A stretch of 32,313 bases of DNA from Planctomycetia bacterium (lineage in GTDB: Bacteria > Planctomycetota > Planctomycetia > Planctomycetales > Planctomycetaceae): assembly GCA_016200145.1 (NCBI GenBank), contig JACQFH010000536.1:1-32313 (forward strand). Direction: 5' to 3'. This document shows, piece after piece, positions 1,232-3,390 of the stretch (position 1 is the stretch's first letter; each line of letters begins with the position of its first letter). Both the position numbers and the translations under genes were made by a program. The notes beneath the pieces are model-generated. The model did no database searches. It was given only the letters and a program-made list of their open reading frames with translations, and was not told where the DNA came from.

Positions 1232-1852
1232 CTATCTTCCGTCCTCGCCCCTTTCCTCCCACGCCTTCTGCCCCGGCCGCGGTGGTTGCGACATCTGCTC
1301 ATAATGCGGGTCCTCCAGTCCGAAAGCGTCGGCCACCCGGTTGAAAAATGCAAACAGTGCCGCAATGTAAATCGCCTCGGCGATCTGCGGGTCGGACCAG
1401 CCGGCCTGGCGAGCTTTGTCGACGTCCTCGGCCCGGCAGCGGTACGCGTGTTCGGTGACGAGCTTCACGAGTTCGAGCAGCGCCCGCTCGGCAGCGGAAA
1501 TCGACGGATGAGTAAGCTCGGCCCGCCGAATCGCGTCGACCGATTCCTGGTTCTGTCCCTGCAACTGCAGAAACGACGCGTGCGAGCCGCGTCAATACGG
1601 GCACTGATTGAGGGCCGAAACGTACGTGGCGATCATCTCCTTGATCCGCCGCGTCAGGTGCCCCTCGGAAAAATGCAGACGGTACGAGAAACTCATGACG
1701 TCCGCCAGAAAGTCCGGGCGCTGGCTGAAGCACTTGAGAATGCCCGGAATTTCGGGCCGGCCGGGATTGTGATCGAACCATTTCCTGTACAGCTCGGCCA
1801 GTTCGCCCGACGCGTGCTGTTCGTCGATCCATCCGATGTGCGGCGCCGTCAT
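1232..1852 (-). CDS. AhpD/carboxymuconolactone decarboxylase-like protein, predicted selenoprotein (in-frame TGA at 1592-1594)
   Basis: A single frame of 207 codons runs from ATG 1852 to TAG 1232 and is broken only by one TGA at codon 87. Residues 1-86 (starting MTAPHIGWIDEQ and ending ALNQCPY) and residues 88-206 (starting RGSHASFLQLQG) are both good matches to the peroxidase-related AhpD/CMD family. The family active site is CxxC followed by a His three residues later; here it reads C84-P-Y-TGA-RGS-H91, so the TGA replaces exactly the second catalytic Cys. Selenocysteine there would give CPYU. AhpD-like proteins use this pair for thiol peroxidase or disulfide chemistry, and Sec-containing versions have been predicted before in bacteria. 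The C-terminal segment EAIYIAALFAFFNRVADAFGLED is also typical. AGGAG lies 10 bases before the chosen ATG. The gene sits between gatA (68-base gap) and coaD. Alternatives are a TGC-to-TGA error or a recent nonsense mutation. Confidence 0.85.
1550..1574 (-). promoter_or_regulatory. Candidate bacterial SECIS stem-loop after the in-frame TGA
   Basis: Counting from the U of the UGA, bases 21-45 can fold into a two-part hairpin. The lower stem is GUUU with GAAC, the upper stem is CUGC with GCAG, and the apical loop is AGUU with a G at its second position. The loop begins 25 bases after the UGA, inside the 16-37 range usual for bacterial SECIS elements, and the loop G resembles that of E. coli fdhF. 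A five-base asymmetric bulge lies on the 3' side. An alternative pairing UUCUG/CAGAA with a 12-base loop is possible. The fold was found by eye; no energy was computed. Confidence 0.55.
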
Positions 1853-1920
1853 GGTCCAGCGGCTCCTGGGCGAGGGTGAAAGAAACTTGTGACGCGTCGA
1901 AAGCCGCGCCGCCTGCAATC

Positions 1921-3390
1921 TCAACCGGGAGCGCTTGCAGGCCGGCGCCGGTGCCAGTCGGTCTCGCGCTCGAACATGCGGGCGGCTCGCAACAGTCGCT
2001 CTTCTTCGAACGGCGGCGCCAGAAGCTGAAGCCCGATCGGCAGGTTGGTCTGGCTGAATCCTGCGGGAATCGAAATGCCCGGCAGTCCGGCGAGGTTGGC
2101 GCTGATCGTATAAATATCCGAAAGGTACATCGCCAGCGGATCGTTGACGAGTTCCCCGATTTTGAAGGCAGGCGTGGGGGCTACCGGCGAGGCGATGACG
2201 TCGACTTCGCGAAAAGCCGCGTCGAAATCATTGCGGATCAGCCGCCGGACTTTGAGCGCTTTCAGGTAATAGGCATCATAGTAGCCTGCCGACAGCGCGT
2301 AAGTCCCCAGCATGATCCTGCGTTTCACCTCGGCGCCGAACCCTTCGGCACGGCTGGCGCAGTACATGTCGATCATGTTGTCGAAATGGGCGGCCCGATG
2401 GCCGTAGTGTACGCCGTCGTACCGCGCCAGGTTGCTCGACGCCTCGGACGGGGCCACGATGTAGTAAACGGCCACGGCGTATTTCGAATGCGGCAGCGAG
2501 ACCTCCTTAATCTCGGCGCCAAGCGAACGGTAGACCTCCAGGGCATTGCGGATCGCCGCTTCCACTTGCTGATCCAGCCCGCTCACGAAGTGCTCTTTGG
2601 CGATGCCGATGCGCAGACCGGTGAGCGGTTCTTCGACGGTGCGGCTGTATTCGGGAACCGCGGCCGCGACCGAAGTTGAATCGCGATGATCGTGCCCCGC
2701 GATTGTCTCCAGCAGCAGAGCCGCTCCGCCGACGTCGTTGGCGAACGGACCAATCTGATCGAGCGAGCTGGCATACGCGACGAGTCCATACCGCGAAACC
2801 CGGCCGTACGTCGGTTTCATTCCCACGACTCCGCAAAATCCGGCCGGCTGACGAATCGATCCGCCGGTATCGCTCCCCAGCGCGAGAGGCGCCATGCAGG
2901 CCGCAACGGCCGCCGCAGAACCGCCGCTCGAGCCGCCGGGCGTTCGAGTCAGGTCCCACGGGTTACTCGTCGTTTTGTAGGCCGAATTCTCGGTCGACGA
3001 ACCCATTGCGAATTCGTCCATATTGGTGCGGCCGATCAGCACGGCATCGGCCTCCCGCAGCCGCGAGATGACGTGTGCGTCATACGGAGGCACAAAGCGT
3101 TCGAGCATGCGGCTGCCACAGGTCGTTGGCTCGCCTTGAGTACAGATCACGTCTTTGATCGCCACCGGCAACCCGCCGAGCGCCCCGACGCACTGGCCCC
3201 GTCGGCGCTTCTCATCGATCGCCCTGGCCTGCTCGAGCGCTTTGTCGCGGTTGACGTGCAGGAACGCGTTCACTTTGCCATCGGCGGCGGCGATCGCCTC
3301 CAGGTAGGCCGTCGTCACATCAATGCTGGTGACGTCGCCCCGATCGAGCCGTTTGACGAGTTCGCCCGCAGTCGCCCCGAGAATTGACAT
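1921..3390 (-). CDS. gatA: Asp-tRNA(Asn)/Glu-tRNA(Gln) amidotransferase subunit A
   Basis: GatA is the amidase subunit of GatCAB. It releases ammonia from glutamine, which is used to convert mischarged Glu-tRNA(Gln) or Asp-tRNA(Asn) to the amidated form. The 489-residue product carries the amidase signature with the Ser-cisSer-Lys triad K79 (in VAIKD), S154 (in PGGSSGGS) and S178 (in [16 protein letters not shown]), the same numbering as well-studied GatA proteins. The length is normal. I chose ATG 3390 ([11 protein letters not shown]) because the alignment-like start of GatA falls here; the frame is open further upstream but that extension looks non-coding. A purine-rich AAAAGGGAA directly precedes the ATG. 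gatC lies upstream with a 204-base gap containing repeats; gatB is not in the window. Confidence 0.97.

Follow-up and report, generated by a model that had tools for sequence, protein, structure and literature searches.

A probable selenoprotein of the AhpD-like peroxidase-related family, encoded with an in-frame TGA in a planctomycete genome

The analysed stretch of DNA (hereafter the window, 32.3 kb in length) is contig C127 of a planctomycete assembly of 8.28 Mb, which consists of 742 contigs and has an estimated completeness of 95.9%. The gene under study is located on the minus strand, with gatC-gatA upstream and coaD downstream on the same strand (names assigned by reading the translations). 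The following features were assigned:

1232..1852, minus strand: gene of a predicted AhpD-like (peroxidase-related, TIGR01926/CMD) selenoprotein, ATG at 1852-1850, TAG at 1234-1232, 206 amino acids, Sec87
1863..1867, minus strand: AGGAG, possible Shine-Dalgarno site 10 nt 5' of the ATG, from direct reading of the upstream sequence
1601..1603, minus strand: Cys84, predicted to resolve Sec87 within the CxxU pair, conserved in all 24 aligned homologues
1592..1594, minus strand: TGA codon, predicted selenocysteine 87 as the second residue of the CxxC-type pair, placed by the homologue column
1580..1582, minus strand: histidine 91 of the active-site motif C-x-x-U-x-x-x-H, without variation among 24 aligned homologues
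1555..1574, minus strand: bacterial SECIS-like hairpin, GUUUCUGC-AGUU-GCAGGGAC, apical loop AGUU at 1566-1563, found by single-strand folding and as a conserved core

An earlier note on this DNA had described one frame with a single TGA at 1592-1594 and had given no strand. Read-through translation of the minus strand yields this frame: the coding part (1852-1235) comprises 206 codons followed by TAG, and the TGA at 1594-1592 is its sole in-frame stop. The predicted sequence across the TGA reads LNQCPY-U-RGSHASF, so that the motif proposed in that note, C84-P-Y-TGA with the histidine of RGSH intact, is present as C84-P-Y-U87-R-G-S-H91. As the note had expected, automated gene calling splits the gene, since translation table 11 gives two separate frames at 1924..1592 and 1564..1232. 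The plus strand of 1232-1852 contains an unrelated open frame, which was set aside.

The read-through protein exceeds the cut-offs of both TIGR01926 'peroxidase-related enzyme' (90.7 bits, cut-off 81.8) and the Pfam family CMD, PF02627 (58.5 bits, cut-off 23), in agreement with the suggested AhpD/CMD membership. The TIGR01926 match covers residues 35-179 and thus spans the TGA, which supports the claim that both sides belong to one family without a change of frame. Identity to the nearest relative is 75% before the TGA and 65% after it, with the frame unchanged. The score against NF041238, the model of the AhpD-related (seleno)protein with CFYUT motif ('hypothetical protein 1'), is 59.7 bits and does not reach the cut-off of 175 bits.

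An AlphaFold2 model of the protein (mean pLDDT 90.6) is all-helical. Residues 85-97 form the active-site helix, with the CxxU pair at its start and the histidine four residues further on, the arrangement of the AhpD/CMD fold. The AhpD-like structures 6k40 (D. radiodurans), 2oyo, 2prr and 3c1l were identified by sequence comparison as well as by a Foldseek search with the model. These Cys-form peroxidase-related proteins have TM-scores of about 0.73-0.77 relative to the query and are 22-27% identical to it along almost the entire length. According to their records these proteins are not selenoproteins, whereas the window protein is predicted to carry Sec at position 87. AhpD of Mycobacterium tuberculosis (1knc, 1gu9) has the same all-helical fold and the same CxxC(U)xxxH core, but the fold match is weak (E about 0.1), and no ahpC lies adjacent to the window gene. 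In AhpD, the second Cys of a CxxC pair attacks the peroxide and the first one resolves it, with a His and a Glu close by. In the alignment of 24 homologues, E72, C84, Sec/Cys87 and H91 are among the invariant columns, which is consistent with an AhpD-type active site.

In 119 related genomes, searched with read-through, 20 close homologues were found, 15 with TGA and five with a Cys codon at position 87. A public genome collection added further members from other Planctomycetota, one from Abditibacteriales and one from Chloroflexota, all with TGA. Codon 87 is TGA in 22 of 22 distinct close Sec forms (window gene included) and TGC in all five Cys forms, and the Sec/Cys exchange among the close homologues is restricted to this codon. 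Since 22 distinct close homologues have TGA at exactly this position, its occurrence is not due to chance. Identity values within this clade to the window protein are about 50-69%, compared to about 29-42% for the other planctomycete TIGR01926-type sequences collected. The latter range includes a second, distant AhpD-like clade (L050, L051, L053, L056, L059), in which TGA likewise stands in place of the second CxxC cysteine (CFYU, CHYU); it has Cys-form sisters and includes the same-genus genome G001. No viral relatives were found. The genes coaD and gatA of the window were not found beside the homologues, and a conserved operon context is absent, so that the neighbourhood gives no functional hint. 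Some relatives have other neighbours in common, which on inspection by eye resemble CRTAC1 or PxpA.

In bacteria, a SECIS element is marked by a small apical loop bearing a G downstream of the UGA (PMC1088965). In the window gene the hairpin begins about 18 nt 3' of the UGA, within the coding sequence, and the single strand from 1552 to 1594 folds with a z-score of -2.7. The core (1572-1557 in the window) can form a six-pair stem in each of the 22 Sec forms, starting about 18-20 nt 3' of the UGA, with standard pairs at 132 of 132 positions; these sequences come from Planctomycetota, Abditibacteriales and Chloroflexota. The loop is AGUU (CUGC-AGUU-GCAG), or GGUC in two sequences, and its second base is G in 22/22. 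All 22 Sec forms therefore have a stem-loop just 3' of the UGA with a G in a small loop, as in the published description (PMC1088965). Changes in the stem are one-sided (U-A/U-G and C-G/U-G); they are compatible with pairing and do not constitute compensatory covariation.

The bases of the core encode FLQLQ (FLRSQ in two Sec forms). Leu97 is encoded by TTG in 20/20 Sec forms, a codon that accounts for about 21% of the Leu codons in these genes, and Leu95 by CTG in 21/22. At other conserved Leu columns the codon varies without such restriction. The Leu95 and Leu97 codons are thus fixed beyond the needs of the protein, and selection on the protein does not explain the TTG. The hairpin and its codon pattern are absent from the Cys forms (n = 5).

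The earlier note had proposed to search the genome for selA, selB, selC and selD. The genes selA, selB and selD were found, all of them at contig edges, and selC was not found in the fragmented assembly. The selD gene (contig C21) has Cys in the active-site segment KRAGCAAK. The selB gene is in two parts: the end of contig C161 (L024) carries model positions up to 133, and the start of contig C726 (L023) carries positions 156-576. Jointly they cover the SelB model except for about 20 positions, and no sequence overlap was detected between the two contig ends. The selA gene (contig C251) ends after position 369 of the 455 positions of the model, about 85 C-terminal residues being missing. Its frame (L021:41-100) enters a palindromic repeat, which encodes PPLSKGGAGG, and ends 40 nt short of the edge of the contig. 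A gap, a misassembly or an insertion of the repeat may account for the missing end, and selA may not be intact. The closest SelA to that of the own genome is from G049, the genome which also has the nearest AhpD-like protein.

The tRNA-Sec gene was not found in the 742 contigs with a covariance model, a pattern search or blastn with the tRNA-Sec of the same genus, a query with which the tRNA-Sec genes of relatives examined share words of at least 11 bases. The region after htpG, the location of the tRNA-Sec gene (anticodon TCA) in the same-genus genome G001, lacks it in the own genome. Eight weak matches to RF01852 fell below the cut-off, and those checked by ARAGORN were ordinary Arg, Leu, Gly, Tyr, Thr and Ser tRNAs.

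A recent loss of Sec decoding, which would leave the gene as a relic ending at codon 86, would account for the missing tRNA-Sec and for the selA frame that runs into a repeat. We regard this as highly improbable. The position of selA, selB and selD at contig edges is what assembly gaps would produce, and for this reason a gap is also the likelier explanation for the missing tRNA-Sec. Moreover, tRNA-Sec is present in the same genus, neither the hairpin nor the frame downstream is disrupted, and a second candidate selenoprotein gene of this genome (see below) is likewise intact.

Comparison across 30 genomes (distant homologues included) showed selA in 20/20 genomes with a Sec form, but in only 1/10 with a Cys form (Fisher p 7e-7); the 20 include G073, whose selA is in two pieces, each under the single-match cut-off. 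Within the close clade, selA exceeded the cut-off in 15/15 Sec-form and 0/5 Cys-form genomes (p 6e-5). A tRNA-Sec match over 60 bits was obtained for 17/20 Sec-form and 1/10 Cys-form genomes. These counts are affected by relatedness among the genomes. Well-supported branches of the tree carry about four independent Sec/Cys switches, all or nearly all of which follow the direction of selA, but this number alone does not reach significance (sign test p 0.125). Four genomes of family f5 (G085, G093, G096, G111) encode a full-length SelA-like protein with 146-158 bits, well below the selA cut-off. As G096 has a Cys-form AhpD and no tRNA-Sec match, this protein may be a paralogue of SelA that serves a different function.

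A TGA that arose from a Cys codon by nonsense mutation of the genome or by mis-sequencing would require a single base change from TGC or TGT and would fit the absence of tRNA-Sec from this assembly. Such an origin is very unlikely, because the TGA and the hairpin recur in a further 21 distinct genomes, some of them from other phyla, where the TGA tracks selA; the hairpin is under synonymous constraint, and residues past the TGA stay conserved. Genome-wide reassignment of TGA to an ordinary amino acid, for which the open frame alone would speak, can practically be dismissed because TGA ends 12 of the 26 window genes, and it would leave the hairpin and the selA association unexplained.

Taken together, based on the conserved TGA, the hairpin and the association with selA, the reading of the earlier note as an AhpD-like selenoprotein with CPYU motif is the best one, and we conclude with high confidence that the gene codes for an AhpD-like 'peroxidase-related' protein that contains selenocysteine. 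The computational evidence shows the frame, the family, the conserved TGA, the hairpin and the joint occurrence with selA, from which the insertion of Sec itself is inferred, whereas the substrate and the reductant are proposed. SelB with Sec-tRNA(Sec) would read the UGA at codon 87, guided by the hairpin in the coding sequence. Sec87 and Cys84 would act as a redox pair where the active-site helix begins, beside His91. By comparison with the AhpD family, Sec would take the place of the attacking second Cys and would be the faster nucleophile. The likely target of its selenolate is a hydroperoxide or some other oxidised substrate, hydroperoxide being suggested by the family; Cys84 would then resolve Sec as a selenenyl-sulfide, and a thiol reductant would restore the pair.

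During examination of the region in which G001 has its tRNA-Sec, a 91-aa ORF was observed at L091:4734-5009 on the plus strand (about 34733-35008 of the own contig C556). It contains one in-frame TGA (ACGFV-U-GG) followed by a hairpin. Homologues with 61% and 37% identity (L093:1459-1767 and L107 around 1501-1765) have the TGA at the identical place and stem from two planctomycete genomes of different families. A hairpin 3' of the TGA is present in each of the three genomes, e.g. CCGUCACA-GGU-UGUGACGG. The protein matched no Pfam or NCBIfam family, and a Cys form was not seen in about 500 genomes. This CGF[V/T]U protein may represent an undescribed selenoprotein family with a CxxxU motif, for which three sequences are few.

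A more far-reaching reading is that the mostly-Sec clade is a functionally distinct selenoenzyme with a role beyond that of a peroxidase. Its ancestral residue would be Sec, with Cys taking over each time selA was lost, and the genome would belong to a lineage with further undescribed selenoproteins such as CGF[V/T]U; we consider this reading rather improbable.

The selenocysteine-containing gene of the window is an additional member of a family already known, since AhpD-like CxxU selenoproteins have been published since 2005. They were reported with 27 sequences in the Sargasso Sea study of that year (PMC1088965), as 'AhpD-like 1' with 299 sequences in the 2008 GOS study (PMC2398784) and with TIGR01926 in the family table of a 2026 review (PMC13188914), in line with the statement of the earlier note that Sec-containing relatives had been predicted in other bacteria. 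The window protein has the family model (COG2128/TIGR01926) and the position of CxxU in common with them. In the window gene, too, a bacterial SECIS whose small loop bears a G follows closely on the UGA (PMC1088965, PMC2398784). Its clade in Planctomycetes is not mentioned in these three publications. Full Sec-insertion gene sets and several selenoproteins are described for the Porphyra-associated planctomycetes P1 and P2; AhpD-like proteins do not appear in the main text of that study (PMC4807772).

The present analysis restores a gene which automatic annotation would break in two, and adds a well-supported Sec-form AhpD-like clade in Planctomycetota, a phylum seldom covered by the selenoprotein surveys consulted. 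The hairpin within the coding sequence, kept across three phyla down to synonymous codons, is a good test case for SECIS recognition. The clade also offers a natural comparison of one enzyme, which has Sec where selA is present and Cys where selA is mostly absent.
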